DNA of 45,840 nucleotides, from the NCBI RefSeq assembly GCF_000384335.2, contig NZ_ARWG02000003.1, positions 1-45,840 of the forward strand, read 5' to 3'. The position numbers were made by a program, and so were the translations under genes. Every line of letters starts with the position of its first letter. The first letter of the stretch is position 1. Shown here in pieces: positions 2,418 through 45,840 of this stretch. The notes under the pieces are model-generated. The model had not been told where the DNA came from. It ran no database searches and saw only the letters and a program-made list of their open reading frames with translations. This DNA is from Hyphomicrobium sp. 99. GTDB taxonomy: Bacteria; Pseudomonadota; Alphaproteobacteria; Rhizobiales; Hyphomicrobiaceae.

Positions 2418-2427
2418 TTATTTTTTG
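2384..2427 (+). terminator. Putative rho-independent terminator (+ strand)
   Basis: GCCGCAGC and GCTGCGGC form an 8-bp stem around a 14-base loop that can itself pair (GGA/TCC). It is followed on the + strand by TCGTTTATTTTTTG. It overlaps the 3' end of the leftward primase gene and lacks a T-run on the minus strand, so it would act on rightward transcripts from 2200-2380 or on int read-through. Confidence 0.5.
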
Positions 2428-4148: not shown

Positions 4149-4149
4149 C

Positions 4150-4602: not shown

Positions 4603-5251
4603 TTAGTCCCCCTGTTTCGTTCATCACCAAGCGATAGCCTTGGCGATAGCCTACATTTTCAATCGATACGCCAGTTCCAACTAACTTCTCCCTCAGATGG
4701 CAGAGCGCCACCTTGAAAGCCGCATACATTTTTGACGCGCTCGGACCGCCGTCCGGATCGTCCGCGTACATCTCGTTAAAGATTGTTTCGGGCTGCACCG
4801 CGCGGCCCTTCCCAGACCATACCGCGCGCAAGATTGACTCTTGCAGCGGCGACAAACCTGCAGCGTGCGCGATGATGTCGACAGTCGGCTGCGGAACGCT
4901 TTGTTCGCAGCATGGGCAGGAATGTTTTACAGGTCGCAAGAGGGTCGCAAGAATTTCCGCGCGCGCCTCGACCAGATTTTCAATCCTAAAATTATCCGAA
5001 TTTCCGTCAGCAAACCGGATCATATTCCGCGTGATACCGTGGTGCCAGTTCCAGACGAGATAGTGAGCGGAGAAAAAACTGCCGCCGAGACGCACGAAAG
5101 GTTTCTTGCGACCCTCTTGCGACTTGCGCCAAGTGATCGCGCGCCCGCCGTTTCTCTGTCCAGATGCAGAATGCTGCCAGTACAGCATGCCGTCGCGGTA
5201 ATCCAACAAGCGCCGCGCTTCTTCCTTCAAGATCTGGTTTGGTATTTTCAT
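4547..5251 (-). CDS. Degenerate HNH-like domain fused to an OmpR-type winged helix
   Basis: The protein has 234 residues. Residues ~15-95 look like the HNH endonuclease module common in phages (YRDGMLYW near 18-25, AHYLVWNWHHG at 62-72, FRIENL at 88-93). However, the segment that normally reads Asp-His-x-Asn-Gly-Asp reads RFADGNSD (79-86), so the catalytic Asp-His pair is gone. A Cys cluster (C112, C114, C115) follows. Residues ~133-209 resemble the winged-helix DNA-binding domain of OmpR-type response regulators (LSPLQESILRAVW, then VGYRQGYRLV). No receiver domain is present. I infer a DNA-binding regulator or recombination accessory rather than a nuclease. It overlaps both neighbours in the early operon. 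Confidence 0.7.
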   Translation of the reverse strand: MKIPNQILKEEARRLLDYRDGMLYWQHSASGQRNGGRAITWRKSQEGRKKPFVRLGGSFFSAHYLVWNWHHGITRNMIRFADGNSDNFRIENLVEARAEILATLLRPVKHSCPCCEQSVPQPTVDIIAHAAGLSPLQESILRAVWSGKGRAVQPETIFNEMYADDPDGGPSASKMYAAFKVALCHLREKLVGTGVSIENVGYRQGYRLVMNETGGLNGGLSQQGADHRERGARP

Positions 5252-6663
5252 ACGCCGACCCTGCCCCCCTTAGCTTGTCGCGCCGTGTAAATGTGAGCGG
5301 CCCATGCTTCCGGCCGCTTGTATCCGCGCGCAGTTGCGAGCGCGACCAGAGCGTCTAGCGTCTTCGCTTCCGCCTGTTCGCGCTTGCGTTCGCGGCGGAT
5401 CGCTTCAACGTCGACCTCTTGCAATTCGCCGTCGACTTCTTCGATCTCACGCGGGCCGACCGTGGCACGCTTCTTCTCGTAGACGTGGCCGCACTCCGGA
5501 CACTTCGCGGCAGGCTGATGCGCGGCGAAGCATGACGGGCAGACGAGCAATTCAGCTTCGCGCTTCTTCTGCTTGCGCCCTTCGAGCGACCATTCGCGTT
5601 CTTCGTCGGGCAGGCCCAGGTTCGGCTTGGCAAAGCCGCCGACCATATCGATCAGGATATGAGGGACGCCGGTCCCATCCTGGCGAAGTCCGCGACCGTG
5701 CTTCTGCAAATGCCGCGCGAGCGATTGCGTTGGCGAGTTATCAAGCACGCATTCAATCGTCACCGGCCGGTCGACTTGCGCCGCGAGGTCGAAGCCCTCG
5801 CAGAAGAGTTGGCAATTGACGATGATGTCTATCTGCCGGTCAGCGAAGCCGATGAACGCGGCGCGTCGATCCGCTTGCGGCGTCTCGCCATCGAGCGCAA
5901 CGGCCATCACACCAGCGGCGCGAAACTCAGCGGCCAGACGTTCGGCGCTTTCGATGGACGGCGAGAATGCAATAGTGCGCTTGCCGAGCGCCTTGCTTTT
6001 CCAATGCTTCACGGCGTTTGCGAGAACGCCCTTGCCTGACATGAGGCTATCGAGATCCGACGAGACGTATTCGCCGCCTCGCGTGCGTAAGCCGCTCAGA
6101 TCGAGCCCGGCAGGAGAGAACGCACGGTAACGCGACAGGTGGCCGTTCTCGATCAGCCACCGGACAGACGGCCCCATGACCATCGTATCCCACACGTCGC
6201 CCAGCGGCTTGCCGTCTAAGCGCTCCGGAGATCCCGTCAGGCCGATAAGCTTCGCGCCTTCGGCCTTGTAGTGCAGCGCGACTTTCGCCCATCCGCTTGC
6301 CATGCTCAGGTGGGCTTCATCGACCATGACGTAACCAGCGGGAATTTTCCCGAGGCGATTTTTCAGTGTCGCGATAGAGGCGATGAAGACGCGATGATGA
6401 GGATTTAGATGATGCCCGGCAGCGATGTAAGAAAACGGGATGCCGAATTTATAGAACGTCTTCGCTGTTTGCGTGATCAGGTCGACGCGATGGACGCAGA
6501 AGATTACGCGCTTCTTCGCCTCGAAAATGCTCTTGATCAATGCGCCCGCGAGAACGGTCTTACCGAAGCCAGTCGGCGCATAGGTCAGCACCGACGCGTT
6601 CTCGCGCAGTGCAACGCGGAGCTTCGCGCGAACGTCATCCTGATCAGGGCGCAGCGTGATCAT
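5248..6663 (-). CDS. DEAD/DEAH-box (SF2) helicase with zinc ribbon
   Basis: This 471-residue superfamily 2 helicase is of the phage/RecQ-like-restriction-helicase type. Walker A is APTGFGKT (29-36), motif II is DEAH (115-118), motif III is LTGSPER (about 138-144) and motif VI lies near HGRGLRQ (about 324-330). After the second RecA domain comes a four-cysteine ribbon (CPSC and CPEC, about 370-390), then a Lys/Arg/Glu-rich helical tail. It probably unwinds replication or recombination intermediates. It overlaps both neighbouring genes by 4 bases, so it is translated as part of the early operon. Confidence 0.92.
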   Translation of the reverse strand: MITLRPDQDDVRAKLRVALRENASVLTYAPTGFGKTVLAGALIKSIFEAKKRVIFCVHRVDLITQTAKTFYKFGIPFSYIAAGHHLNPHHRVFIASIATLKNRLGKIPAGYVMVDEAHLSMASGWAKVALHYKAEGAKLIGLTGSPERLDGKPLGDVWDTMVMGPSVRWLIENGHLSRYRAFSPAGLDLSGLRTRGGEYVSSDLDSLMSGKGVLANAVKHWKSKALGKRTIAFSPSIESAERLAAEFRAAGVMAVALDGETPQADRRAAFIGFADRQIDIIVNCQLFCEGFDLAAQVDRPVTIECVLDNSPTQSLARHLQKHGRGLRQDGTGVPHILIDMVGGFAKPNLGLPDEEREWSLEGRKQKKREAELLVCPSCFAAHQPAAKCPECGHVYEKKRATVGPREIEEVDGELQEVDVEAIRRERKREQAEAKTLDALVALATARGYKRPEAWAAHIYTARQAKGGRVGV

Positions 6664-6872
6664 CGGCCGACCACCATGCGCTTGATGTCAGGTTCATGCG
6701 GAGCCATGCGCTTGAGCCGTGCCGCAAGCTCGCGCATAATTTCGACGTCGACGAGTTCGAGCGATAGCAATGCCGGACCCGCGTTGCCTCCATTGTAGGG
6801 ATGACAACGCATCACAAGGGCCTCAACGAACTCGGCCTGCTGTTGTAGAGTCAGACGCGGCGCGGAGGTCAT
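6660..6872 (-). CDS. Small early protein of unknown function
   Basis: This 70-residue, mainly helical, charged protein has no recognised motif. The 4-base overlaps with the Cro-like gene upstream and the helicase downstream show that it is a real member of the operon. Its place between regulator and helicase suggests a replication accessory role, but that is only context. Confidence 0.7.
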   Translation of the reverse strand: MTSAPRLTLQQQAEFVEALVMRCHPYNGGNAGPALLSLELVDVEIMRELAARLKRMAPHEPDIKRMVVGR

Positions 6873-7111
6873 TTGCCCCCCGGCGTCAGATCGCGCGATG
6901 TCAGTACGACCTTTAGCTTTTTGGCAACCGCAAGCAGATGTTTCTGGTCACGACCGTTAATTAGTCCTTCTTCGTCCTTAAGGGCGCGACTAACCTTGGA
7001 TCTATGCCTGTCAATCTCTCTGGCAAATGCCGACTGCGACAAGCCAAATTTATGAAAAACGCGTCGCCACGGCGTTGAGTTTTCTAGGGGGTGTTTCACG
7101 AGCTTGACCAT
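6869..7111 (-). CDS. Cro-like helix-turn-helix regulator
   Basis: This 80-residue DNA-binding protein heads the leftward early operon. An HTH_3-like fold spans ~18-65 (SQSAFAREIDRHRSKVSRAL at 25-44). Its HTH shares the pattern A-F-A-R-E-x6-S-x-V-S-R-x-L with the divergently transcribed repressor, which suggests that both bind the same operators, as Cro and CI do. Its promoter (-35 at 7161-7156, -10 at 7138-7133) is covered by two operators. Expected role: lytic switch, lowering repressor and early transcription. The Cro function is inferred from position and fold. Confidence 0.8.
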   Translation of the reverse strand: MVKLVKHPLENSTPWRRVFHKFGLSQSAFAREIDRHRSKVSRALKDEEGLINGRDQKHLLAVAKKLKVVLTSRDLTPGGK

Positions 7112-7118
7112 TCAAAGT

Positions 7119-7135
7119 AGTGCGATATTCGCAAC
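7119..7135. promoter_or_regulatory. Repressor operator site 1 (AGTGCGATATTCGCAAC)
   Basis: It matches the 17-bp dyad GTTGCGA-N3-TCGCAAC at 12 of 14 arm positions. Its centre lies 21 bp, two helical turns, from the next site, which would allow cooperative binding on one DNA face. Confidence 0.75.
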
Positions 7136-7161
7136 ATACGTTGCGCTTCTCGCATCGTCAA
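7133..7161 (-). promoter_or_regulatory. Leftward early promoter
   Basis: On the minus strand TTGACG (7161-7156) is followed after 17 bp by TATGTT (7138-7133), a good sigma70-type promoter. The predicted start is near 7126, a short distance from the Cro-like ATG at 7111. One operator (7140-7156) fills the spacer and another (7119-7135) covers the -10 and start, so binding would block RNA polymerase. Confidence 0.7.
7140..7156. promoter_or_regulatory. Repressor operator site 2 (GTTGCGCTTCTCGCATC)
   Basis: It matches the dyad at 12 of 14 arm positions and lies exactly between the -35 and -10 boxes of the leftward early promoter. Confidence 0.72.
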
Positions 7162-7217
7162 GCATCGAGCGCAACGCGCCGCATTTATTAAAGGGGGGTA
7201 TATGCCACTTGCAAGTT

Positions 7218-7234
7218 GTTGCGATAAATGCAAC
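7218..7234. promoter_or_regulatory. Repressor operator site 3 (GTTGCGATAAATGCAAC)
   Basis: It matches the dyad at 12 of 14 arm positions and lies 36 bp before the repressor ATG, so it probably governs repressor autoregulation. I do not see a convincing -35/-10 pair for the repressor gene here. Confidence 0.7.
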
Positions 7235-7269
7235 ATGAAGGCGCATCATAGGGAGTCGCGTATAGGCCG

Positions 7270-7887
7270 ATGTCAGATACAGCGCACGTCGACAGCGAGT
7301 GGTTTCGCACACGGTTCGCTCAGAAGGGAACGTCTTATAGGGCGTTCGCTCGCGAGCATGGCATGGACCCATCCGCCGTGTCGCGCATGCTGACAGGTCA
7401 AAGACGAATGCAGAGGGATGAAGCCGCCGCCATCGCTCAATTTATCGGCGCACCAGTCAGCGAAGTTTTGAAACATGCGGGCGTAACCATCGACGGCGAG
7501 TTCACGCCGATACTGCTCGTCGCAACGATCAATGAGCACGGCCAAATCGAGCGCCTACCGGAGCCGCGACCGTTGCCGCATTCAGTGATCGAGCGAGCGC
7601 AGTCTGCGATTGATGCGGTCCCGCGTGTTCTCGCTGCGCAGATTCGTGCGCTGACTGGACCGTTGACCGTCATGGATGATGCGCTTGTATTGTTCAGCCA
7701 CACCGATGACGTTGAGCCTACTTCGATAGGTGCGTTGTCTATCTGCCGGAACTTCGCGGGCGATCAAATCCTCGCCAAGATCGAGCGCGCCAGGAAGACC
7801 GGCGAGGCGCGCGTCGTCACGATTGACGGCAAGGTCAAGGAATTTGACCTGCAAACAGCGACGCCAATTCTGACGATCATTCCATAA
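7270..7887 (+). CDS. CI-like lysogeny repressor
   Basis: This 205-residue protein is transcribed away from the Cro-like gene. Residues ~10-55 form an HTH (SYRAFAREHGMDPSAVSRML at 22-41). The C-terminal half (about 130-205) resembles the beta-barrel of S24/LexA-type repressors (GALSICR, then GDQILAKIERA). I find no Gly-x-Ser-Met catalytic serine motif before it, so RecA-stimulated self-cleavage looks unlikely and induction may need an antirepressor or another route. I infer that it binds the seven dyads listed here. The gene ends at a strong hairpin terminator. SD support is weak (GGGAG ~15 bases upstream), as is common for repressor genes. Confidence 0.82.
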   Translation: MSDTAHVDSEWFRTRFAQKGTSYRAFAREHGMDPSAVSRMLTGQRRMQRDEAAAIAQFIGAPVSEVLKHAGVTIDGEFTPILLVATINEHGQIERLPEPRPLPHSVIERAQSAIDAVPRVLAAQIRALTGPLTVMDDALVLFSHTDDVEPTSIGALSICRNFAGDQILAKIERARKTGEARVVTIDGKVKEFDLQTATPILTIIP

Positions 7888-7894
7888 AACACGG

Positions 7895-7934
7895 AAGGCC
7901 GGTAACTCCCGCAACTGAGTTACCGGCCTTCTCT
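7895..7934 (+). terminator. Terminator after the repressor gene
   Basis: A perfect 14-bp stem (7895-7908 with 7917-7930, AAGGCCGGTAACTC and its complement) with an 8-base loop is followed by CTCTTG. It would insulate the repressor transcript and could stop leftward transcripts too. Confidence 0.85.
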
Positions 7935-8123
7935 TGCTGGCGCGCCCCGCTGCCGAGCAAATTAAAAAGCGTGCAGTTCCTAGAGGGATTCGCGGGTTTA
8001 TTGGGACTTCTCAAGCGGCCCACCGCAAAGCCGCTGCACCGGCTAATCGTTGCGATAAAAGCATTAACGATGTGTTTCCGTCAACGGGCGATGTGATTTA
8101 TTTTTAAAATCGCATCGGCCGCC

Positions 8124-8153
8124 TTGACGCGTGCGCTCTGTTGCCCGTAGTGT
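8124..8153 (+). promoter_or_regulatory. Promoter of the recombination operon
   Basis: TTGACG (8124-8129) and TAGTGT (8148-8153) are separated by 18 bp. The operator begins 28 bp after the start of the -35, exactly as at the 41221 promoter. Both promoters begin TTGACGCG. Confidence 0.6.
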
Positions 8154-8168
8154 TGCTCTTATCGCAAC
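8152..8168. promoter_or_regulatory. Repressor operator site 4 (GTTGCTCTTATCGCAAC)
   Basis: It matches the dyad at 12 of 14 arm positions with a perfect right arm. It covers the -10 end and start point of the recombination-operon promoter, 24 bp before the exonuclease ATG. Confidence 0.75.
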
Positions 8169-8192
8169 GCACCGCAACGAAAGGCGCATCGC

Positions 8193-9056
8193 ATGGCATC
8201 AGCCCAAAAAGTCAAGGACGACATTAAGCCCGGCATTTATGCGGGCATCCCCAACGAGGCGTATCATTCAGGCCCAGGCATTTCCAAGTCCGGCCTTTGG
8301 ACGATACACACCAAGTCACCGGCTCATTTCAAGTTCGGAGAGCGCAAGGAATCGACGGCTTTCGACATTGGCGAAGCTTGTCACCTTGCCATTCTTGAGC
8401 CGAACCTGTTCGAGAAGAAAGTCGTGCGCGGTCCCGAAGACCGTCGCGGCAACAAGTGGAAAGACCTTGCCGAAGTCTGCGGCATCGACGGAAAGCTGCT
8501 GCTGACATCTGGCGATTACGACAGCGCTCTCGCTATTCGCGACGCCGTGCATGCTGACGCATTCGTCAGCGGCATCGTCACCAACGAAAACGCGACCATC
8601 GAAACGTCTGGCTATTGGGTCGACGAGGAAACCGGCCTGCTCTGCCGTTGCCGCCCGGATCTTTACCGCCCCGACCTCAGCGTCATGGTCGACGTTAAAT
8701 CGACCGTCAGCGCACACCCCGACGCGTTCGCTAAGAGCGTCACCAACTACGGCTACCACGCGCAGGAAGCATTCTATTCAGACGGCTGGCGTGCGCTCGG
8801 GCAGAACGTCGACGGATTTGTGTTTCTCGCATGGGAGAAAACGAGCCCCTACGCGTTCGGGATCTACGAGCTACCCCCGGCAATCGTCGAGGAAGGCCGC
8901 GCCATCATTCGCCGCTCGCTCGAAACTTACGCTGTGTGCCAGCGCTCGAACTCATGGCCCGCCTACGGCCAAGGCGTCCAAGAGCTTGATTTCAAGCGTT
9001 GGGCCTACCGCCTGACTGAAGCCCCGTCAGCACTCGATACGGAGCTTTCAGCGTGA
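8193..9056 (+). CDS. PD-(D/E)XK exonuclease, RecE/lambda-exonuclease-like (DUF3799 type)
   Basis: This 287-residue 5'-3' dsDNA exonuclease would generate 3' single strands for the annealase encoded two genes downstream. Visible active-site residues are His64 (GEACHLAIL), Asp156 (CRPDLY), the D167-V-K169 motif and Gln191/Tyr195 on the following helix. It is similar to the C-terminal catalytic part of RecE rather than the full-length protein. It is the first gene of the recombination operon, directly behind a repressor-controlled promoter, so it should be off in lysogeny. Confidence 0.9.
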   Translation: MASAQKVKDDIKPGIYAGIPNEAYHSGPGISKSGLWTIHTKSPAHFKFGERKESTAFDIGEACHLAILEPNLFEKKVVRGPEDRRGNKWKDLAEVCGIDGKLLLTSGDYDSALAIRDAVHADAFVSGIVTNENATIETSGYWVDEETGLLCRCRPDLYRPDLSVMVDVKSTVSAHPDAFAKSVTNYGYHAQEAFYSDGWRALGQNVDGFVFLAWEKTSPYAFGIYELPPAIVEEGRAIIRRSLETYAVCQRSNSWPAYGQGVQELDFKRWAYRLTEAPSALDTELSA

Positions 9057-30944: not shown

Positions 30945-31427
30945 TTAAATGTCGTCGCCAGTCTCGCCGGTAGAGCCCGGCGCGATCCAATCGGGCTGAA
31001 CGCCGCCGATAGCTTCGGCCACGCCGTTGCCCGTCACCGTTACCGGCGCAGGAGCATCAGCGAACGGCCCGCGCTCGCTCTCGCTTGCCTCGACATAGGC
31101 CGCGATAATGCGGTCAGCTTCCGTCGCGTTGGCGACGTTCTCGCCAGTGATCGCTTTCGCAAGCGCTTTGCGATCTGCGGCTTTCCCATCCCGCCAATCG
31201 GCAGGAACGACAACAGGCCCGGCAGGTTTGGACTGATCGGCCGTCACTTCTGCCGGTTTCGATCCGCCCGTTTTGCCGTCGCCATCGTGGTCGCCCTTGC
31301 CGCCGAAAGAATATGGACGCGTCCACTTCGGCGGATTCTTCAGATCGTCCGGAACGTCGAAGATCGACCCCGGCTCTCTGATCTCGCCGCCGAAATAGCC
31401 ACGTACTTTTGCAACGACTTTAGCCAT
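30945..31427 (-). CDS. Head-module protein of unknown function
   Basis: The protein has 160 residues. The N-terminus (MAKVVAKVRGYFGGEIREPG) and DVPDDL resemble the short 'phage protein with G-x-R-x-G-x-x-F' opening of head-completion genes. The middle is Gly/Asp/Lys-rich and disordered, followed by a helical segment (about 85-120, DRKALAKAITGENVANATEA) and an acidic tail. It overlaps the cement gene by 8 bases. It occupies the slot next to the Bbp16-like gene; the role is unknown. Confidence 0.75.
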   Translation of the reverse strand: MAKVVAKVRGYFGGEIREPGSIFDVPDDLKNPPKWTRPYSFGGKGDHDGDGKTGGSKPAEVTADQSKPAGPVVVPADWRDGKAADRKALAKAITGENVANATEADRIIAAYVEASESERGPFADAPAPVTVTGNGVAEAIGGVQPDWIAPGSTGETGDDI

Positions 31428-31857
31428 TGGACTGGTTCCCCATCGTTACGCCCGCCGTTACCTTGCCCGCCGTCATCGGACCCGTCGCGACTGTGTAGTA
31501 CAGACGCGCATAGCGCTCGTCCGTGCCGCGCGTGATGTATTCCGGAACGACGATGAAGCCCTGCACAAGTTCGGCCTTGCCGATTGCACGGCTCTGCCAA
31601 ACAGTCTTTGCAGACGAGAAACTTTCGTTATCGTCGACTTCGAGAGAAAACTGCAAAGTCGCAGAGCCAGAAGCGGTGAACGCTTCGATCACCTGGATAA
31701 GCAACGGGATCGAGCACCCCTTGCCGATGTCGCGAGCGAGGTTCACGGCAGCGCCGTAGACGCGCCCCGTAGCGCCCAGGTCGATAACATTCGTAGATGC
31801 AGCCGACGCCGTAATTGCCTGCGCATCAGACAAAAGAGACTGATTGTCGAAGATCAT
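31420..31857 (-). CDS. Bbp16-like capsid cement protein
   Basis: This 145-residue protein opens with LLSDAQAITASAASTNVIDL (8-27), the signature of the Bbp16 cement protein of Bordetella phage BPP-1, which sits on the capsid surface and stabilises it. It is beta-rich throughout. It lies immediately after the major capsid gene, separated by a strong hairpin. Confidence 0.85.
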   Translation of the reverse strand: MIFDNQSLLSDAQAITASAASTNVIDLGATGRVYGAAVNLARDIGKGCSIPLLIQVIEAFTASGSATLQFSLEVDDNESFSSAKTVWQSRAIGKAELVQGFIVVPEYITRGTDERYARLYYTVATGPMTAGKVTAGVTMGNQSNG

Positions 31858-31930: not shown

Positions 31931-32944
31931 TTATGCGTATGCCGGAACAAGCGCCTCGGTATTCAGAAGCGCGTCCGTCTCGCGGATCGGAATACCGCGA
32001 TACGTCTTGACTTCCTTGCCTTCGACAACGGCCTGCGACAGACCCGTATAGTTCGCGTTTGCAGCAAGAAGCGCGCGGTCGCTCGACTGAGCGTCAAGGA
32101 TTTCGAGAACGTCGCGGTTCATGTAGATCGCGATCCGGCTCGACTGAGCGTCGCGACGGCGCGACTGCAAGCGGTAGTACCCCTTGCGGAGCAGCGCCCA
32201 CAGATCGACAGTGCCCGCCAGCATTTCGGAAACGTCGATGTTCGCGATACGGGCGTTATAGCGCCAGTCTTTCACGAACATGCCGATATGCCAGTTAAAC
32301 AGCGTCTCCTTGACGTAGTAGGGATTGCCCGCGCTATCGGTAACGCGCTGCTCGCCCTTGTCCTCAATCGAGATGCCCGCCTTCATGCCCTTGGGATAGA
32401 GCAACGAGGTTGCATGATCGCCCCAGGTAACGAACCAGATCGACGTGTTGTCGCTTCCGGAGCCGCCGCCATGGATAACCTGCTCGCCCGCGCCAGGACC
32501 GCCGCGCACGGAGTAACGAGCCGATAGACCCTTGAACTTGTCAGGCGTCGTCGCCGTGTCGTGATAGAACAGACCCGTTGCCATTTCCTGATTCATGGCT
32601 TCGAGATACGGAGCGCTATCGACGAGACGCGCCTTTGCAGGATCGGGCGCAAGCTTGAGCAAGCGCGTATCGATTTGCGAGCCAGCTTCGAGGAAGCCGG
32701 TCGTATCGTCGACCTGCTGCATCGTCGCCTTTGACTGCGGAACGCCTTTGTAAAGACGGCCCCAGCCGACAGTCGGCAAACCTGTGCGGATCATGTGGCG
32801 ATGCTGCGCCTGCATGTTGCACTCGGTCGCGATTGCGTCGTCTAGGATAGAATTTTGCTGATTGAGAATTTCAGCAACCGTTCCCTCAGCGGACCCCTTA
32901 AAGGCGTCGATGAGGTTAGGGAAAGATTTGCCAATAGTAGCCAT
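31931..32944 (-). CDS. Major capsid protein (BPP-1-like podovirus)
   Basis: This 337-residue protein lies between scaffold and cement genes, the expected place, and its sequence resembles BPP-1-type major capsid proteins. The N-terminal arm (about 8-70) contains SFPNLIDAF, TVAEILNQQNSILDDAI and a segment around HRHMIRTGLPTVGWGRLY. The C-terminal half contains the helical spine (MLAGTVDLWALLRKGYYRL) and YRGIPIRETDALL, typical of the HK97-like fold. The N-terminal arm has a stand-alone homologue at 45046-45354. Confidence 0.9.
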   Translation of the reverse strand: MATIGKSFPNLIDAFKGSAEGTVAEILNQQNSILDDAIATECNMQAQHRHMIRTGLPTVGWGRLYKGVPQSKATMQQVDDTTGFLEAGSQIDTRLLKLAPDPAKARLVDSAPYLEAMNQEMATGLFYHDTATTPDKFKGLSARYSVRGGPGAGEQVIHGGGSGSDNTSIWFVTWGDHATSLLYPKGMKAGISIEDKGEQRVTDSAGNPYYVKETLFNWHIGMFVKDWRYNARIANIDVSEMLAGTVDLWALLRKGYYRLQSRRRDAQSSRIAIYMNRDVLEILDAQSSDRALLAANANYTGLSQAVVEGKEVKTYRGIPIRETDALLNTEALVPAYA

Positions 32945-32946
32945 GT

Positions 32947-33774
32947 TTAGCCTTTCGGAGCGTCACTAGGAAACAGGACGTGTGCAGGATCGGCAGGTTT
33001 GCCGGAACCGCCCGCGCCACCACTCGGCGGGGAATCCTCGCGGATCATCGCCCCGGCCTTCGACATGAAACGGATAAGCTCAGGATGGTTGCCGCCTCCA
33101 CTGGCGTTCAAATATTCCTTCAGTGCTGGCGTCCCGAGCTTGTTGACGGCGCGCGTAGCTGACGCGACAGTCGCGTCCCACTTGTCGCCGCCGATTTCCT
33201 TGTCAGCCTTCGCGCTATCGGCCCAGCCTTGGATCGTTTCGCCCCACTGCTTCGCCTCTTGCTCGATCTCTGCGCGCCGCGTTTCGATGTAATCGTTCGT
33301 TAGCTCTTGAGCTTCGCGGTGCGTGTAGCCTTTGGCTTTGAGACGTGGACTGAGCTTGTCGAGCAATGCCTTGTCGACCTCTACGCCGTCCGGCATCGTC
33401 AGGTTATATTTGCCGTCTTCAGGCACCTGATCGAGCGGATCGGCGCTCTTTTTGTCCTTGTCTTCTGCCGGTTTCGTCTTGTCGTGCTCAGCCTTCGCCG
33501 CAGCGCTCTCCGCATCGCTCTTGCTCGGATCTGCGACGTATTCCTTCCAATCGGTCGGCGCTTTATCACCGGCAGGCGTAGCTTCCGCAGGCTTCGCAGG
33601 ATCAACGGGCGCAGCCGGATCGGCAGGCTTCTCGTTGGGGAACAGGATCGTGCCTGGATCGCTCGGAGGCGTATTGCCGCCAGCGCCTTCATCATCAGGC
33701 GCGAAGAAAAACGCGGGAAAGAATACGCTTCTAAGCAATGTCTGCATCGTCTTCAGGCTCCAATTTCTCAGCAA
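32947..33774 (-). CDS. Capsid scaffolding protein
   Basis: This 275-residue highly charged protein has a disordered Pro/Ala/Lys-rich N-terminal half and a helical C-terminal half (about 150-245), as expected for an internal scaffold directly preceding the major capsid gene. ILFPNE (44-49) and VLFPSD near the C terminus are repeats of one motif. The native start is probably Met10 (MQTLLRSVFF), since the first codons overlap the previous gene by 44 bases. Confidence 0.82.
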   Translation of the reverse strand: MLRNWSLKTMQTLLRSVFFPAFFFAPDDEGAGGNTPPSDPGTILFPNEKPADPAAPVDPAKPAEATPAGDKAPTDWKEYVADPSKSDAESAAAKAEHDKTKPAEDKDKKSADPLDQVPEDGKYNLTMPDGVEVDKALLDKLSPRLKAKGYTHREAQELTNDYIETRRAEIEQEAKQWGETIQGWADSAKADKEIGGDKWDATVASATRAVNKLGTPALKEYLNASGGGNHPELIRFMSKAGAMIREDSPPSGGAGGSGKPADPAHVLFPSDAPKG

Positions 33775-40965: not shown

Positions 40966-41197
40966 AATTAGTCCCGGCCCGAATTGCGCCGAGCCGTGCT
41001 CGGGTCGACAGCATGGCCGTCAACGGTTGGCAATGCGATTGAGGCCCATCCGCCAATCGCAACGCAAAACACATCATGTTGTGGGTCGCGGCCATTAAGG
41101 TTACTGGCAGACCGCAATATCTTGTGCTGTGAAGATTTTTTTGATGCTCTTTCGATCACAACACCCGCCCCGCTTGATGCGCTAGACGTACATCATC

Positions 41198-41214
41198 GTT
41201 GCGAATATCGCAAC
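41198..41214. promoter_or_regulatory. Repressor operator site 5, perfect dyad (GTTGCGAATATCGCAAC)
   Basis: This site matches all 14 arm positions of GTTGCGA-N3-TCGCAAC. It lies just upstream of the -35 at 41221 and 51 bp centre-to-centre from site 6, so the pair flanks the promoter. Confidence 0.85.
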
Positions 41215-41220
41215 GGGCTA

Positions 41221-41250
41221 TTGACGCGGTGTGGATCGATGTGTGAATGT
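41221..41250 (+). promoter_or_regulatory. Promoter of accessory operon 1
   Basis: TTGACG (41221-41226) and GAATGT (41245-41250) are separated by 18 bp, the same geometry as the recombination-operon promoter. An operator begins 28 bp after the -35 start in both. Confidence 0.6.
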
Positions 41251-41265
41251 TGCGGCCATCGCAAC
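41249..41265. promoter_or_regulatory. Repressor operator site 6 (GTTGCGGCCATCGCAAC)
   Basis: It matches the dyad at 13 of 14 arm positions. It covers the end of the -10 and the likely transcription start, 14 bp before the first ATG of the operon. Confidence 0.82.
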
Positions 41266-41279
41266 GGAGAGCACATCAA

Positions 41280-41519
41280 ATGCGTCTGTACTTCATCGCC
41301 TGCGCTATCAGCGTGGACAATTTCGACCAGTTCGCAATCGCGCCCAGCAAGCAAACCGCGTTGGACCTTTGGGCACAGGCTTGGGATCTCGACGCGCGCG
41401 AGCGCGCAACCGCCCACGTCTTCGAGATCAAAGCCGCAAAAGTGACGAGCGAGACGCCGCGCCTTCTCGACTGGGACGGAGCCGACATCGTTCGGGTCCA
41501 TGACGAAGTGGAGCATTGA
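41280..41519 (+). CDS. Small accessory-operon protein, unknown
   Basis: This 79-residue alpha/beta-looking protein (MRLYFIACAISV start, acidic end) has its ATG at 41280 directly after operator 6, with CGGAGA as SD. No family is recognised. It is the first gene of a repressor-controlled operon, so it is likely an early lytic or host-takeover protein. Confidence 0.7.
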   Translation: MRLYFIACAISVDNFDQFAIAPSKQTALDLWAQAWDLDARERATAHVFEIKAAKVTSETPRLLDWDGADIVRVHDEVEH

Positions 41520-41521
41520 TC

Positions 41522-41836
41522 ATGGACATTCTGCCCCGCACTCTCGAGCAGATGGAGCTTCGCCGCACTCGCTACGAAGTCCAGCTAGTCATCGGCGGCA
41601 ATAGCCGCATCGTCGGCTACACGGCCCGCAAAACGCGGGAAGCGCTGAACGAGTACATCGCCAAGTATCGCGATGAGATTGTTAGGCACATCGGAGATCC
41701 GGACAGCGCCTATTACGGCGCAGGTCCAGGCCGCATCGACATCAACGACGACGTTTCTATTGCCTTCACCGGCCGGACCGAGCGCGACGCGCGCCGAGCA
41801 ATCGACCGCGAGCTCAACTCGGAGGTCGCGGCATGA
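41522..41836 (+). CDS. Small accessory-operon protein, unknown
   Basis: This 104-residue charged protein has a beta-rich first third (TRYEVQLVIGGNSRIVGYTA) and a helical remainder. I chose the ATG at 41522, two codons after a possible TTG. It is packed between neighbours with a 4-base overlap at its 3' end. Function unknown. Confidence 0.72.
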   Translation: MDILPRTLEQMELRRTRYEVQLVIGGNSRIVGYTARKTREALNEYIAKYRDEIVRHIGDPDSAYYGAGPGRIDINDDVSIAFTGRTERDARRAIDRELNSEVAA

Positions 41837-41988
41837 TCTCGAAGCGCATCTGGAAGATGAGCCGCAAATTGAAATCTCGGCATGGGATCACCGGAAAATC
41901 TGACCATTATTACGTGACCCGCGAAGGATGGTTTCTGTTCGGTGTTATCCCGATTTACGTGCGCGATATTGATGTGGAGGTGTCGTGA
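41833..41988 (+). CDS. Very small basic protein
   Basis: This 51-residue protein (MISKRIWKMSRKLKSRHG start; aromatic middle HYYVTREGWFLFGVIPIYV) overlaps the previous gene (ATGA) and the next gene's ATG. The coupling is the main support for it being real. No family is recognised. Confidence 0.6.
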   Translation: MISKRIWKMSRKLKSRHGITGKSDHYYVTREGWFLFGVIPIYVRDIDVEVS

Positions 41989-42740
41989 TGACAGTCCGCA
42001 TCATCGACACCGAAACGACCGGGACCGATCCAAGCGCAGATGAGATCTGCGAGATTGCATCCGTCGACCTGAAGAAAGTCGACGGCCTGTTCTGCGTAAG
42101 GAACCCGTTGTCGACGTTCGCCGCTATCTCGAAGCCGATGCCTCCCGAGGCGTCGGCTGCTCATCACATCGTCGACAAGGATCTGATAGGCGCTCCGCCC
42201 ATCGATCAGGCGCTAGTTCCGTTTACCGAGCACGACGACGCAGAGCTTGTTTTCGTCGCTCATAATGCGGACTTCGAGCGCGCATTTTTAAAGCCTTGGC
42301 TTAGATCGCAGCGTTGGATCTGCACTTATAAGGTTGCGCTTCGCGTGCTTCCGGATCTGCCGAGCCACAGCAACCAGTTCCTTCGCTATTACTTCGGGCT
42401 TGTCGAGCCCTTCGGCATGGCGCGGGAGAGCATCGCCCCGCACCGCGCGCTTTCCGACTGCTACGTGACCGCCGCAGTATTCGTGCAACTCGCGCTGCTT
42501 TCACCTAGCTACGCGCAAATGTTCGCGTGGAGCGACGAGCCGCCGCTTAAATCGCGGATCACGTTCGGCAAGAAGCACAAGGGACTTCGTTACGACGATC
42601 CGGCAGTCCCGACGAGCTATCTGCGATGGATCATCAACGAAAGCGACCTGGACGAGCCGACGAAGTTCAGCGCCCAGCATTGGCTTGACCAGCGGGCAGA
42701 GGCCGAAAATCAAAAACTTATGGCAGGGAGCCTGATTTAA
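41988..42740 (+). CDS. DnaQ/ExoX-like DEDDh 3'-5' exonuclease
   Basis: This 250-residue protein has Exo I IIDTETTG with Asp7 and Glu9, Exo II VAHNADFERAF (about 84-94) and Exo III HRALSDCYVTA near 144-154 supplying the His/Asp pair, so the active site is complete. The C-terminal part (SRITFGKKHKGLRYDDPA) resembles the ExoX-type extension. It may proofread, degrade host DNA or process recombination ends. The gene is translationally coupled to the 51-residue protein. Confidence 0.9.
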   Translation: MTVRIIDTETTGTDPSADEICEIASVDLKKVDGLFCVRNPLSTFAAISKPMPPEASAAHHIVDKDLIGAPPIDQALVPFTEHDDAELVFVAHNADFERAFLKPWLRSQRWICTYKVALRVLPDLPSHSNQFLRYYFGLVEPFGMARESIAPHRALSDCYVTAAVFVQLALLSPSYAQMFAWSDEPPLKSRITFGKKHKGLRYDDPAVPTSYLRWIINESDLDEPTKFSAQHWLDQRAEAENQKLMAGSLI

Positions 42741-42742
42741 AA

Positions 42743-42994
42743 ATGACCAGCATCACACCGACTACAGACCTATTCGCCACGTTGAAATTGACCGAGGACG
42801 ACATTGAAAACTGGCGCAAGCAGCTTGATCAGCTTGCAAGCGACACGTCGCGCAGCGCCCGGTTCCTGATCGCGCCAATCGGCCGTTGCGTCGTCGTCGT
42901 CGACGAGGCGCATATCTATGACGGCTACGACAGGCAAAAAGCGATTGCGCTCTACAACGCCGCTCCGAAGACGAAGAAGGCGACATCACGATGA
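42743..42994 (+). CDS. Small accessory-operon protein, unknown
   Basis: This 83-residue protein is helical at the N-terminus (LTEDDIENWRKQLDQLA) and then has a short beta segment (FLIAPIGRCVVVVDEA). No family is recognised. It ends in ATGA shared with the next gene. Confidence 0.7.
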   Translation: MTSITPTTDLFATLKLTEDDIENWRKQLDQLASDTSRSARFLIAPIGRCVVVVDEAHIYDGYDRQKAIALYNAAPKTKKATSR

Positions 42995-43167
42995 GCGAGC
43001 CACTTAAGCCATGCCCGTTCTGTGAGCCTTTATATTCGGACCCCGTTCTTGTGACCGGAAGCCCAGGCAATTCCTTCGTAATGTGTAGAGGCTGCAATTG
43101 CGCGACGGATGATGGCACGGCGGAACGCGTTGTCGGGCTTTGGAATCAGCGAAATGGGCAGCAATGA
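42991..43167 (+). CDS. Lar-like restriction-alleviation zinc protein
   Basis: This 58-residue protein has LKPCPFCEP near the N-terminus and MCRGCNC in the middle, forming a four-Cys zinc site, and ends GLWNQRNGQQ. This is the pattern of the Lar/DUF restriction-alleviation family (CPFC...C..C...W-N-x-R). Rac-prophage Lar modulates type I restriction; here that role is inferred by similarity. It shares 4 bases with each neighbour. Confidence 0.72.
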   Translation: MSEPLKPCPFCEPLYSDPVLVTGSPGNSFVMCRGCNCATDDGTAERVVGLWNQRNGQQ

Positions 43168-43409
43168 CCGAACTCGAAATGAAGCTGGCGTCGGCCCTGC
43201 TGTACGCGAAGGGGAAACTTAAGCTGTACCGAGGAGCGCACATCGGCGAATATATCGGCGGCGTTGAATACGCAGAGCTTATGCGGATCATCGACGACGC
43301 ACTCGACGCGACCAAGAAGAAGCCAGCGCCGGAAGCAGAAGGGATAATGACCCAACCCCGCCGCTATGACCCGCTCAGCCGCGAATACGACGACGAGATA
43401 CCCGATTGA
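43164..43409 (+). CDS. Last gene of accessory operon 1, unknown
   Basis: This 81-residue helical protein (MTELEMKLASALLYAKGKL) ends in a Pro/Asp/Arg-rich tail. I chose the ATG at 43164 because it overlaps the previous stop. A terminator follows. No family is recognised. Confidence 0.7.
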   Translation: MTELEMKLASALLYAKGKLKLYRGAHIGEYIGGVEYAELMRIIDDALDATKKKPAPEAEGIMTQPRRYDPLSREYDDEIPD

Positions 43410-43415
43410 CGACCG

Positions 43416-43446
43416 AGCCCGGCGAACCATTGCCGGGCTTTTTATT
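43416..43446 (+). terminator. Terminator of accessory operon 1
   Basis: AGCCCGGC/GCCGGGCT (8 bp) with an 8-base loop is followed by TTTTTATT. A near-identical stem recurs at 45695 after operon 2, so the two operons share a terminator type. Confidence 0.9.
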
Positions 43447-43454
43447 TGCCCCCA

Positions 43455-43483
43455 TTGACGACTATTGCGCTCTGATGTTATGT
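43455..43483 (+). promoter_or_regulatory. Promoter of accessory operon 2
   Basis: TTGACG (43455-43460) and TTATGT (43478-43483) are separated by 17 bp. The operator starts at 43484, so repression is by occlusion of the start. The leader before the 43514 ATG would be only ~24 nt. Confidence 0.65.
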
Positions 43484-43500
43484 GTTGTGGAAATCGCAAC
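43484..43500. promoter_or_regulatory. Repressor operator site 7 (GTTGTGGAAATCGCAAC)
   Basis: It matches the dyad at 12 of 14 arm positions with a perfect right arm. It places the PrtN-like activator and the capsid-arm mimic under repressor control. Confidence 0.75.
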
Positions 43501-43513
43501 ACAGAGCCGCAAC

Positions 43514-43873
43514 ATGAAAAAGAAATTCCCAACCATCGAGGTCAAATCCGCCACCGGCGGCAAGGTCTTCATTACTTGGCGCGATGTGAAAGCCAACCGC
43601 CGCTATCACATCTGGTTCAGCCGCGACCAACTCGATCACGTTTTTTATTCGAACTGGATCGATCCGCAGGGCAAGAGCCGAGGCCGAACGCACAAGCGCC
43701 TAAAGGCGAGCGCGAAGAAATGGGCACCATTCATGGCCCACATTCGCGCCGTGCTCGCGGCCCGGCAGATTTCCGAAGCCCGAGCGGCTTTCAATCTCAA
43801 ACATGATTCAGCACGCGCCGCCGCGTTCAAATTGCTGCCGCGCATCCCGACCGCTGAACTCAGGCCCTACTGA
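43514..43873 (+). CDS. First gene of accessory operon 2, unknown basic protein
   Basis: The protein has 119 residues. Its N-terminal beta-rich part (KKKFPTIEVKSATGGKVFI) and very basic C-terminal part suggest nucleic-acid binding. I chose the ATG at 43514 because it follows the promoter and operator; an upstream in-frame start would lie inside the terminator. No family is recognised. Confidence 0.72.
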   Translation: MKKKFPTIEVKSATGGKVFITWRDVKANRRYHIWFSRDQLDHVFYSNWIDPQGKSRGRTHKRLKASAKKWAPFMAHIRAVLAARQISEARAAFNLKHDSARAAAFKLLPRIPTAELRPY

Positions 43874-43892
43874 CACCAGGAGGCAATGCACA

Positions 43893-44129
43893 ATGTACGG
43901 CACCACTTGCACCATCGAGCGCGACGGCGAGCAGATCGAGGTCGAAGTCGAATATTCTCTGACGCCATACTACCCGGCCCAGACCTACGGCCCCGCAGAG
44001 AATTGCTACCCGGCAGAGGGCGGCGAGATCGACGAGCTTACCGCCTACCTCGACGGGGAGAAGTTCGAACTGACCCCCGTCGAAATGCAAGCCGTCGAAA
44101 AGCGCATCTATGAAATCGACCTTTGGTGA
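43893..44129 (+). CDS. Small acidic protein, unknown
   Basis: This 78-residue acidic protein is rich in Tyr, Pro and Glu (EVEVEYSLTPYYPAQTYGPA). A strong CAGGAGG SD precedes the ATG at 43893. Similar small acidic proteins occur in phage early regions. Function unknown. Confidence 0.72.
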   Translation: MYGTTCTIERDGEQIEVEVEYSLTPYYPAQTYGPAENCYPAEGGEIDELTAYLDGEKFELTPVEMQAVEKRIYEIDLW

Positions 44130-44133
44130 TGCC

Positions 44134-44400
44134 ATGAACACAGCATTCCTTTTGATGGCTCAATATGAAGGCAAGGCGGTCATTCCGCTTGACGACGTTT
44201 GCCGCGACTACTTCAGCCACCTGACGCCCGCGAAGCTTTCATATAAGGCGACCGCTGGCGAGATCGATTTGCCGATTGTGCGGATCGAGACGAGCCAGAA
44301 GGCCGCGCGCGGCGTTCACCTTCAGGACTTGGCGGCATGGATTGACGCCCGCCGAGCAGCGGCGCAGAAGGAAAACGATCAGTTGCAGGGGAGACGGTAA
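44134..44400 (+). CDS. PrtN-like (pyocin-activator family) transcriptional activator
   Basis: The protein has 88 residues. The start MNTAFLLMAQYEGKAVIPLD and the blocks CRDYFSHLTPAKL and GVHLQDLAAWIDARR are the hallmark of the PrtN family, whose Pseudomonas member activates pyocin structural genes after release from PrtR repression. I chose the ATG at 44134 (not 24 bases earlier) because family members begin MNTAFLL. The C terminus, KENDQLQGRR, carries the shared cassette tag. Control by operator 7 suggests a repressor-to-activator relay toward late genes; the target promoter is not proven. Confidence 0.85.
   Translation: MNTAFLLMAQYEGKAVIPLDDVCRDYFSHLTPAKLSYKATAGEIDLPIVRIETSQKAARGVHLQDLAAWIDARRAAAQKENDQLQGRR
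44380..44400 (+). repeat. Cassette-junction repeat, copy 1 (diverged)
   Basis: CAGTTGCAGGGGAGACGG plus TAA encodes Q-L-Q-G-R-R-stop of the PrtN-like gene and supplies GGGGAG 8 bases before the GTG of the next gene. It is the most diverged of the five copies. Confidence 0.8.
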
Positions 44401-44401
44401 A

Positions 44402-44617
44402 GTGAAGGTTGAAATTCACGGCAACGTGCGCGGCACGCCGGAAGTACGCAAGATATGGGAGGGTGAACTGTCTGCTTTGCCCCGACCAGACGACTACATA
44501 GTTCTAGATGAGGACAAAGCCGCCCTTTCAGTGCGCAATGTCATGATCATCGCGCCAACGAACAAAGCAATAATCAACGTGTGGGCACCCGAAAACGAGT
44601 ACCCTGCGATAGACTAA
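44402..44617 (+). CDS. Cassette gene 2, unknown beta-rich protein
   Basis: This 71-residue protein (GTG start at 44402) has a beta-rich pattern (VKVEIHGNVRG, then NVMIIAPTNKAIINVWAP). It ends in TAA two codons before an in-frame copy of the LQGRR module (44624-44644), so read-through would add C-C-Q-L-Q-G-R-R. The tag thus seems lost by a stop mutation. Function unknown. Confidence 0.7.
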   Translation: MKVEIHGNVRGTPEVRKIWEGELSALPRPDDYIVLDEDKAALSVRNVMIIAPTNKAIINVWAPENEYPAID

Positions 44618-44623
44618 TGTTGT

Positions 44624-44644
44624 CAGCTTCAAGGGAGGCGATGA
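44624..44644 (+). repeat. Cassette-junction repeat, copy 2 (untranslated but in frame)
   Basis: CAGCTTCAAGGGAGGCGATGA is in the frame of the preceding gene but after its stop codon. It acts as SD for the ATG at 44649 (GGGAGG, 10 bases). Confidence 0.85.
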
Positions 44645-44648
44645 AGCA

Positions 44649-44873
44649 ATGAGCGAAGAAAAATTCTTTCGATCCCTCGTCTTACAGTCGCTTTGGATCT
44701 TGATCGTTTGCGCGTTCGGCGGCCGACCGAGAGGCAGGGCGGAAGAATTGCGCGGCGAACTTATCCGCTACTTTGATGAGCACGGAAACCAGACCGAGAG
44801 CGCACACGAGTATCGGCGCACGACTACGTTCCCGGCTCTGCCAGCAGAAGACCAGCTTCAAGGGAGGCGCTAA
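44649..44873 (+). CDS. Cassette gene 3, small protein with possible membrane segment
   Basis: This 74-residue protein has a hydrophobic stretch at about 8-23 (SLVLQSLWILIVCAFGG), possibly membrane-associated, and a charged remainder with the C-terminal tag DQLQGRR. No family is recognised. Confidence 0.65.
   Translation: MSEEKFFRSLVLQSLWILIVCAFGGRPRGRAEELRGELIRYFDEHGNQTESAHEYRRTTTFPALPAEDQLQGRR
44853..44873 (+). repeat. Cassette-junction repeat, copy 3
   Basis: CAGCTTCAAGGGAGGCGC plus TAA encodes Q-L-Q-G-R-R-stop and places GGGAGG 6 bases before the next ATG (44874). Confidence 0.88.
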
Positions 44874-45044
44874 ATGCCAGTTATCTACTATTGCGATAGG
44901 TGCGGCACAGAGCACAAGATCACATCTAGGCCGAAGGTAATACCGACCAGGATAACGTGTCGGTGCGGAGTTACATTGACCATAGACGACCCCGAATTGC
45001 GAGAGTTGCCAGAGGCAGAAGAACAGCTTCAAGGGAGGCGATAA
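44874..45044 (+). CDS. Cassette gene 4, small zinc-ribbon protein
   Basis: The protein has 56 residues. YYCDRCGTEHK and TCRCGV give a CxxC...CxC metal site. The C-terminal half is acidic and ends EEQLQGRR. Such mini zinc proteins are often nucleic-acid or polymerase binders, but nothing specific is visible. Confidence 0.7.
   Translation: MPVIYYCDRCGTEHKITSRPKVIPTRITCRCGVTLTIDDPELRELPEAEEQLQGRR
45024..45044 (+). repeat. Cassette-junction repeat, copy 4
   Basis: CAGCTTCAAGGGAGGCGA plus TAA encodes Q-L-Q-G-R-R-stop. GGGAGG lies 7 bases before the GTG (45046) of the capsid-arm mimic. Confidence 0.88.
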
Positions 45045-45045
45045 A

Positions 45046-45354
45046 GTGAAGGAATCGCAAACCTATCCATCCTTAATCGACGCATCCGGGAGCGCGGCGG
45101 AAAGTATTGTCGCTGAAATCCTGAATAAGCAGAACCCGATTTTGGATGACGCTATTTTAGACATGCAAGCGCCGCATCGCTACCTGATCCGCATGGACTT
45201 GCCAGGAGTTGATTGGGGGCAACTCTACAGAGGCGTGCAAATTTCTTATGAGGCAAGGCAGCGCTTCAATGGTCGCAACTGGCGACGGATAAAGCGAGAA
45301 GTGCGAAAGGCCGTAAAAGCAGCGAAGCGCGAACGGCTTCAAGGGAGAAGATGA
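45046..45354 (+). CDS. Stand-alone mimic of the major capsid protein N-terminal arm
   Basis: The protein has 102 residues and a GTG start. Residues 8-67 align with residues 9-71 of the phage's own major capsid protein with one 3-residue gap; I count about 38 identities in 60 positions by hand, including VAEILN, ILDDAI and the spaced HR..IR..LP.V.WG.LY.GV pattern. After residue ~68 the similarity stops and a very basic helical tail follows (RRIKREVRKAVKAAKRERLQGRR in two pieces, with the shared tag). Nucleotide differences in the shared part are mostly synonymous. It has an intact frame, an SD from copy 4 and a repressor-controlled promoter. I infer a capsid-assembly decoy or modulator, possibly against related phages; a decaying duplicate is the alternative. 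Confidence 0.8.
   Translation: MKESQTYPSLIDASGSAAESIVAEILNKQNPILDDAILDMQAPHRYLIRMDLPGVDWGQLYRGVQISYEARQRFNGRNWRRIKREVRKAVKAAKRERLQGRR
45334..45354 (+). repeat. Cassette-junction repeat, copy 5
   Basis: CGGCTTCAAGGGAGAAGA plus TGA encodes R-L-Q-G-R-R-stop. It supplies GGGAGA just before the two tandem ATGs at 45351 and 45354. Confidence 0.82.
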
Positions 45355-45668
45355 TGGACCCAGCCGACCTAAACGACCCCGCGACGGCAGAGGCTTTTGT
45401 GCGCGAGAGCATCGCAGACCTTACCGAGACGATTGCAAAATTTGAAGCAGCCGCCGAACAGAAGATTCAGGGATACCGCAAACGCTTCCCTGCAAATTCA
45501 TCGTTGCTGCTGGATCTCTATCATTCAGTGCGCGAGGAGTTGCGCGAAACGACGGCAGATATGAGGATGCGGCGCAATCTGCTTCTTGGAATTATCGAGC
45601 GCGTCGAGTCGACGAGACGCCACCACGAGCCGATCAGATTAGGGGAACCGATCAGCACCCCCGAGTGA
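45351..45668 (+). CDS. Last cassette gene, helical protein of unknown function
   Basis: This 105-residue mostly helical, charged protein has probable coiled-coil segments (about 15-45 and 55-90). It does not carry the LQGRR tag, consistent with being the last gene. The ATG at 45354 has a better SD spacing (5 bases) than that at 45351. A terminator follows. No family is recognised. Confidence 0.7.
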   Translation: MMDPADLNDPATAEAFVRESIADLTETIAKFEAAAEQKIQGYRKRFPANSSLLLDLYHSVREELRETTADMRMRRNLLLGIIERVESTRRHHEPIRLGEPISTPE

Positions 45669-45694
45669 CCACATAAGTATTACATGACGAATGA

Positions 45695-45731
45695 AGCCCG
45701 GCTTAACCCATTGCCGGGCTTTTGTTTTTTC
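45695..45731 (+). terminator. Terminator of accessory operon 2
   Basis: AGCCCGGC/GCCGGGCT (8 bp) with a 10-base loop is followed by TTTGTTTTTTC. Stem and downstream T-run match the terminator at 43416, and it separates the operon from int on the circular map. Confidence 0.92.
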
Positions 45732-45745
45732 AGAGCGCCGTCCAA

Positions 45746-45840
45746 TCCATCATGGGTGCGATACTGAATCGGTGATGCGCTGAAATCGCTGAATTATTTG
45801 ACATTCCCGATGAAATCCGTTGCGCATGTTGCTGTTAACC
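45746..45840. repeat. Terminal direct repeat, right copy
   Basis: It is identical to 1-95. See the left copy for interpretation. If the molecule is circular, the region between the operon 2 terminator and int (about 250 bp) is non-coding and is the natural place for attP. Confidence 0.9.

Follow-up and report, generated by a model that had tools for sequence, protein, structure and literature searches.

Gene content of the locus and of the head genes

The window analyzed here is the whole contig C1 (45,840 bases) of the three-contig genome of Hyphomicrobium sp. 99. It contains a plus-strand operon that includes an excisionase-like gene, several small accessory genes and a stand-alone gene homologous to the N-terminal arm of a major capsid protein (MCP), which is referred to as the arm gene. 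The features of this region are the following:

43415-43440, plus strand: terminator-like hairpin before the operon
43484-43500, plus strand: operator-like palindrome GTTGTGGAAATCGCAAC before the operon
44110-44400, plus strand: PrtN-like protein (excisionase by PHROG 1300) that borders the variable slot on its upstream side
44380-44402, plus strand: boundary element, presumed original, at the 3' end of the excisionase-like gene (DQLQGRR stop)
44402-44617, plus strand: slot gene 1, 71 aa, no PADLOC match
44624-44646, plus strand: boundary copy, intergenic
44649-44873, plus strand: slot gene 2, 74 aa, ending QLQGRR
44853-44875, plus strand: boundary copy at the end of slot gene 2
44874-45044, plus strand: slot gene 3, 56 aa, zinc-ribbon-like by eye, ending QLQGRR
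45024-45046, plus strand: boundary copy that closes slot gene 3 and provides the ribosome site for the arm gene
45031-45038, plus strand: Shine-Dalgarno AAGGGAGG of the arm gene
45046-45354, plus strand: stand-alone capsid-arm gene, 102 aa, GTG at 45046 to TGA at 45354
45058-45237, plus strand: capsid-derived part of the arm gene, residues 5-64, N-arm helices and strand into the E-loop
45238-45351, plus strand: tail of the arm protein (residues 65-102), for the most part an amphipathic, basic helix; its final five codons (LQGRR) are the shared boundary
45334-45356, plus strand: boundary copy that closes the arm gene and provides the ribosome site for the gene after it
45351-45668, plus strand: last operon gene, downstream end of the slot, 105 aa
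45695-45720, plus strand: terminator-like hairpin 3' of the operon, -19.3 kcal/mol, z -4.7, absent from the consensus terminator scan
45746-45759, plus strand: att core TCCATCATGGGTGC (attP)

The head genes that bear on the arm gene are encoded on the other strand:

31420-31857, minus strand: cement/decoration protein, likely partner of the MCP arm (PDB 8cjz_B, E 1.4e-23; 3j4u_H, E 6.6e-19)
31931-32944, minus strand: MCP, GP7 family, epsilon15/BPP-1 type, 337 aa
32741-32929, minus strand: MCP codons 6-68, homologous to the arm gene by pairwise alignment
32947-33774, minus strand: head-assembly gene directly before the MCP gene (PHROG 458 'protease'; weak T7-scaffold match, E 0.015, below its cut-off)

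The open reading frame, coordinates, strand, product length and Shine-Dalgarno given for the arm gene in the initial annotation are correct, as is its transcription in the direction opposite to the MCP gene.

Homology of the arm protein to the major capsid protein

Pairwise alignment of the arm protein with the MCP of the window shows 37 identities in 60 positions over residues 5-64, and 39 in 69 over residues 5-73, which align with MCP residues 6-77 with one 3-residue gap; an earlier count by hand of about 38 in 60 with a single short gap is thus closely matched. The Smith-Waterman score is 181, compared to a maximum of 52 among 1000 shuffled ORFs. Pfam GP7 (PF20911) matches the arm protein with 34 bits (cut-off 27), over only positions 6-58 of the 313 of the profile, PHROG 212 major head protein matches it with an E-value of 5.9e-6, and the NCBIfam epsilon15 MCP model gives an E-value of 7e-7 with 29 bits, which is below the equivalog cut-off of 75. 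Judged by these comparisons the relationship between the two proteins is real, which confirms the original observation.

The homology stops near residue 64, inside the E-loop, and the complete HK97-type fold is absent from the arm protein, which is without spine helix, P-domain and A-domain. In the model of the MCP, which is weak (mean pLDDT 58.5), the stretch shared with the arm gene comprises helices 7-14, 19-30 and 32-36, two strands and the approach to the E-loop; the arm protein has no counterpart of the spine helix (102-126) or of anything beyond it. The predicted structure of the arm protein alone is of low confidence (pLDDT 53.6). The family source of residues 5-64 is the GP7-type MCPs, such as epsilon15 gp7 (3j40) and those of BPP-1 (3j4u) and Cobetia phage Carin1 (8cjz), which, unlike the arm protein, are full-length capsid subunits. 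The entry 8cjz is taken as the Carin1 capsid from the length and matching sequence of the Carin1 MCP.

The abrupt end of homology, followed by a basic tail, was also borne out: residues 67-102 (n = 36) include 15 K/R and 3 D/E, with a helical moment up to 0.89. No credible homologue of the tail was found in the genomes, viral contigs or loci compared. A resemblance to a frame of one genome (G189/L026; 15 identities in 36) gave an E-value of 6e-4 in one of 397 genomes and of 0.003 among the frames of the collected loci, and was rejected as chance level for that many genomes; derivation of the tail from another reading frame of the MCP gene was rejected by eye.

Operon organization, control signals and boundary elements

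Some phage records annotate matches of the PrtN-like protein as excisionase or PrtN, and its homologue in another genome of the genus (G020) starts at an ATG matching position 44134. No promoter or terminator of its own was found for the arm gene: the stretch between the hairpins at 43415 and 45695 is common to the operon, and a scan for sigma-70-type promoters found none in 41000-45840. With up to three mismatches, the operator pattern occurs 25 times in the window, each strand being counted separately, whereas shuffles average 9.4 and none of 100 reaches 25. Control by a repressor, as initially claimed, is plausible through the operator at 43484-43500, the one operator match on which the claim rests. 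Position in the excisionase operon would place expression of the arm gene at an early stage of induction or infection, ahead of the late genes.

A palindromic operator-like family, GTTGCGNNNATCGCAAC, is found at 7119-7234, 8152-8168, 41198-41265 and 43484-43500. Its sites surround an HTH repressor-like gene (7270-7887) and lie close to the starts of early operons.

The excisionase-like protein shows the C-terminus NDQLQGRR, while slot gene 2, slot gene 3 and the arm gene end in QLQGRR, QLQGRR and RLQGRR, respectively, and the 23-nt boundary copies are 74-100% identical to the reference copy. The copy that precedes the arm gene shares 78% identity over 40 nt, including AAAGTGAAGG, with the excisionase 3' end, so that the start of the arm gene (GTG AAG) seems to derive from the boundary. 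A relative of slot gene 2 in a viral contig (66%, residues 1-71) ends in ELPIDTRTQ, without QLQGRR, which suggests that the ending of slot gene 2 was added in this phage line. Among the best 80 of 158 excisionase loci, one (L167, whose contig also carries the MCP locus L073) shows an excisionase and a next frame both ending in DQLQGRR; no plus-strand frame ending in QGRR or QGRL was found in the other 79, so the exact ending is not general. No relatives of slot gene 3 or of the last operon gene were found in the viral-contig scans.

From 44380 to 45356, beside attP, the genes form an array of cassettes: three accessory genes in a row terminate in close copies of the excisionase 3' end (LQGRR and the Shine-Dalgarno), and one more copy is intergenic. 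A similar boundary pattern in another genome (G079, L246) was set aside because it apparently belongs to an ordinary chromosomal gene. Capture through a boundary sequence on the MCP side is unsupported, the sequence upstream of that gene being, by eye, without such an element.

Prophage state and comparison with a sister prophage

The contig ends 1-95 and 45746-45840 are identical (95 bp), which gives a circle of 45,745 bp on which the integrase gene (187-1284) follows the att site. Both att junctions also flank a run of N in the chromosome (G000:C3:2181374-2181645). From these identical ends and chromosomal junctions, the prophage appears to be integrated and also assembled as a circle.

A sister prophage in the same-genus genome G020 (L159, L160 and L161) shows 69-91% nucleotide identity in blocks over most of 8295-45761, the part of the window covered by the comparison, which leaves out 1-8294. 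It keeps the excisionase and the last operon gene (57% identity), and its slot contains two other small genes, the first of which ends in HQHQGRL; neither gave a BLASTP match at E up to 10 to the four slot genes of the window. The content of the slot therefore differs between otherwise syntenic relatives, which is the presence/absence pattern of phage accessory genes. The att core at the integration site of the sister prophage agrees with that of the window in 13 of 14 bases, and the sister prophage is without the arm gene. The initial description of a stand-alone capsid arm encoded as an accessory gene is supported, and the operon concerned is that of the excisionase. On the sequence evidence, the arm gene is a captured capsid fragment in a cassette array.

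An accessory slot might also carry a gene directed at host immunity. The free arm would then bind a host capsid-sensing defence protein without triggering it, or would trigger it in competitors, and a capsid protein is a known trigger of defence in the cited account of CapRel (PMC9712102). However, the PADLOC anti-phage defence profiles gave no match, at E up to 0.1, for the arm protein and its four neighbours, that is, among the five slot and end genes, and we regard this role as very unlikely.

Distribution of the arm gene

Only one of 50,697 phage records matches the arm protein at an E-value of 1e-3, and the match lies in the MCP of that record. The genome sets used at successive taxonomic levels overlap. 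In the 22 genomes of the genus there was one match besides the two of the window, in a 351-aa frame; the 103 genomes of the family gave, at E 0.01, one further match at chance level; in the 397 genomes of the order, 16 of the 17 places outside the window lay in frames of 342-381 aa, and the remaining one was a chance-level tail match; and the 385 genomes of the class showed three other places, in frames of 332-343 aa. Pfam GP7 was found at 25 places in the 397 order genomes, two of them in frames under 300 aa: the arm gene, the only one that holds the N-terminal part, and a C-terminal piece of a split MCP (G432).

Genome contigs of all species provided 41 matching loci, and 80 of 282 matching loci were kept from viral contigs; a search of viral contigs with the arm protein alone as query found no relative. 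An arm profile run over 149 loci matched 147 frames, nine of them under 280 aa. These nine are the arm gene, six frames truncated where a contig ends and, at the MCP locus, two broken MCPs (L052 and L108). With a profile of MCP arms only, run over 243 loci, the short-frame additions were repeat fetches of the arm gene and two 79-aa frames (L038 and L088) with an E-value of 0.68, rejected as chance. A further candidate (G080/L004) was rejected for the same reason (E 0.0044, a stop in the frame and no capsid-like ORF seen). Every other match examined was a full-length, contig-cut or broken MCP, or at chance level. The search for relatives proposed with the initial annotation thus leaves the arm gene as a singleton within the phage records, genomes and viral contigs searched, by pattern-based scans that may miss diverged stand-alone arms, and on this sampling of sequences a stand-alone capsid arm seems to be very rare.

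MCP genes broken by a frameshift or stop, or split, are found in related prophages and viral contigs (L052:9976-10998, L108:3768-4788 and G432:C82). Organisms at the related MCP loci include Pleomorphomonas, Rhizobium, Phyllobacterium, Mesorhizobium and Sphingomonas. The match in G276, a genome of the order, and the match in Pleomorphomonas diazotrophica end at an identical contig position, so that the order is probably Hyphomicrobiales.

Divergence and selection

Over the 60 codons compared, the arm gene and the MCP gene show 63 base differences, 15, 13 and 35 at the first, second and third codon positions, respectively, a distribution that departs from equal thirds (p 9e-4). By NG86, some 31 of these differences are nonsynonymous; the claim that almost all differences are synonymous holds at most for the stretches sampled for it, not for the 60 codons.

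For phylogenetic analysis, 77 distinct arm sequences including the arm gene were reduced to 58 (the arm gene, the MCP of the window, and those at least 60% identical to the latter over at least 70 columns) and, after thinning at 97%, to 47 including the arm gene, which leaves a comparison set of 46 MCP arms. In the nucleotide tree of the 47 sequences the arm gene joins the window's own MCP with a support of 96, on a long branch (0.68 vs. 0.034). A branch model on 18 of the 47 sequences gave an omega of 0.068 on the arm-gene branch vs. 0.070 in the background, and omega = 1 was rejected for the arm-gene branch (2ΔlnL 11.8, p 6e-4); synonymous sites are saturated. Coding constraint over the whole branch is clear, and the dN/dS comparison suggested at the outset accordingly rejects neutrality for the branch as a whole, while selection after the capture and selection in a donor capsid are not cleanly separable. 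When the branch was split into a capsid-constrained donor part and a later neutral part, the cost of neutrality in 2ΔlnL was 6.7 for a donor part of 1.2 units and 4.6 for one of 2.0 units; it fell to 2.1 at 3.5 units and to 0.8 at 5 units, where later neutrality was not rejected.

These values bear on a reading that we consider nearly as likely as the assembly decoy described below, although, like the decoy, short of an even chance: that the arm gene is a recent chance capture from an unsampled, diverged MCP gene, with its frame still open, and that the synonymous bias was imposed by the donor capsid on a protein without a selected role. It agrees with a singleton gene that the G020 sister prophage does not carry, with a neutrality that is not rejected at donor branches of at least 3.5 units, and with relaxed constraint as suggested by 11 residues of the arm protein that occur in none of the 46 MCP arms (leave-one-out mean among MCPs 1.1, maximum 7). 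However, it requires an unsampled donor lineage, and only three of the 46 MCP arms have a nearest neighbor below 70% identity; the tree joins the arm to the window's own MCP; shorter donor branches make neutrality costly; and the frame is intact, whereas in simulations with 0.35-0.83 substitutions per codon 22 to 5% of neutral 102-codon frames remained free of stops.

At the protein level, 13 of the 15 sites invariant among the 46 MCP arms are kept, and the 20 sites at which the arm protein differs from all three nearest MCPs favour MCP-variable positions (p 0.012). The 11 novel residues are not concentrated at variable sites (p 0.65) and include two changes in the RTGLP motif. The pN between arm gene and MCP gene, 0.22, is no larger than that of MCP pairs with a pS of at least 0.70 (median 0.27; 356 of 990 pairs), and the median pN to the other 45 MCPs is 0.33 for the arm gene vs. 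0.23 for the MCP of the window. We favour selection after the capture; the constraint probably continued, with altered requirements.

Another reading is that of a redirected small protein, in which the arm is a mere helical support for the basic tail, no capsid link remains, and the tail acts on nucleic acid or partners the neighboring excisionase. The amphipathic tail with its 15 K/R in 36 residues and high helical moment, the location within the excisionase operon and the changes at capsid-conserved positions are in line with this proposal. It is at odds with the 13 retained MCP-invariant residues and with the sister prophage, which integrated at its nearly identical core without an arm gene, and we judge it improbable.

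Proposed origin and function as an assembly decoy

The mechanism best supported by sequence and analogy, which we put forward tentatively, is that of a captured fragment turned into an accessory cassette that acts as an assembly decoy. Recombination would have fused MCP codons around 6-68 to a pre-existing start (an xis-type ribosome site and GTG AAG) and to a basic tail with the boundary at its end. The arm protein would be made early, with the repressor off. It has none of the spine helix, P-domain and A-domain that a capsid subunit requires, but it retains the arm. The free arm, perhaps with the basic tail, would fill the sites of the capsid arm on the edge of the cement sheet, on a neighboring subunit or on an assembly protein. 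The decoy would retard head assembly or lead to heads of the wrong size, with most benefit where the target is a related phage sharing the cell.

As described in the cited passages, a sheet of the BPP-1 cement protein is extended by the N-terminal loop of the MCP, which reaches out to it (PMC3863775), and the P22 coat N-arm binds scaffold by charged contacts (PMC9965877), so a free arm could by analogy occupy either partner. Mobile elements are also reported there to keep capsid homologues that redirect capsids, as with Ccm (PMC8569155, PMC6893505). Counted for the decoy are the homology, the 13 of 15 invariant sites, the 20 changes at variable sites, the omega of 0.068, the pN of 0.22 and the intact frame, together with the slot and its boundary, the integrated and circular phage, the known partners of such arms, the cement homologue encoded here and the Ccm precedent. 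Against it are counted the 11 novel residues (two in RTGLP) and the 3-residue deletion, through which some capsid contacts may be lost, the greater distance to the 45 MCPs, the neutrality allowed with a donor of at least 3.5 units, the singleton status, the pLDDT of 53.6 for the arm model and the scan that found no sigma-70-type promoter. Furthermore, expression in the phage's own lytic cycle would bring the arm into contact with its own capsid too.

Comparison with known systems

The initial annotation knew of no named precedent, and in the open-access text searched we likewise found no report of a stand-alone capsid arm; the nearest case is Ccm of SaPIbov5, a whole capsid homologue and not an arm. 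According to the cited passages (PMC8569155, PMC6893505), Ccm is a phage-derived capsid homologue kept by a mobile element and used on the capsid. The arm gene is likewise a capsid homologue carried apart from the capsid gene. However, Ccm is a complete HK97-fold protein located in pentamers and is satellite-borne, whereas the gene described here encodes the arm only, without a complete capsomer-forming fold, belongs to a complete phage and is known from sequence. Rcm and CpmB of SaPIs act on assembly of the major capsid protein as proposed scaffold competitors (PMC12409344; CpmB also PMC5644958), but in the part of the source cited they are not presented as capsid-derived (PMC12409344). The prophage tail-assembly blocker Tab, as described in the cited text (PMC10884400), acts against virion assembly of other phages, the same kind of action as in the decoy model; it differs in targeting tails, and the likeness is one of description, the arm gene having no PADLOC match.

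The wider proposition, that a temperate phage's own capsid arm has become a free early assembly inhibitor, swapped as a cassette and forming an arm-only counterpart of Ccm, would seem doubtful at present. Should the arm by itself interfere with head assembly, it would be a natural capsid-assembly inhibitor of very small size, gene capture would be an origin of such inhibitors, and the contact with cement or assembly protein would be a weak spot of this capsid type. Independently of the decoy, the gene array beside xis, with its common gene-end sequence, may represent a concrete route of cassette acquisition.
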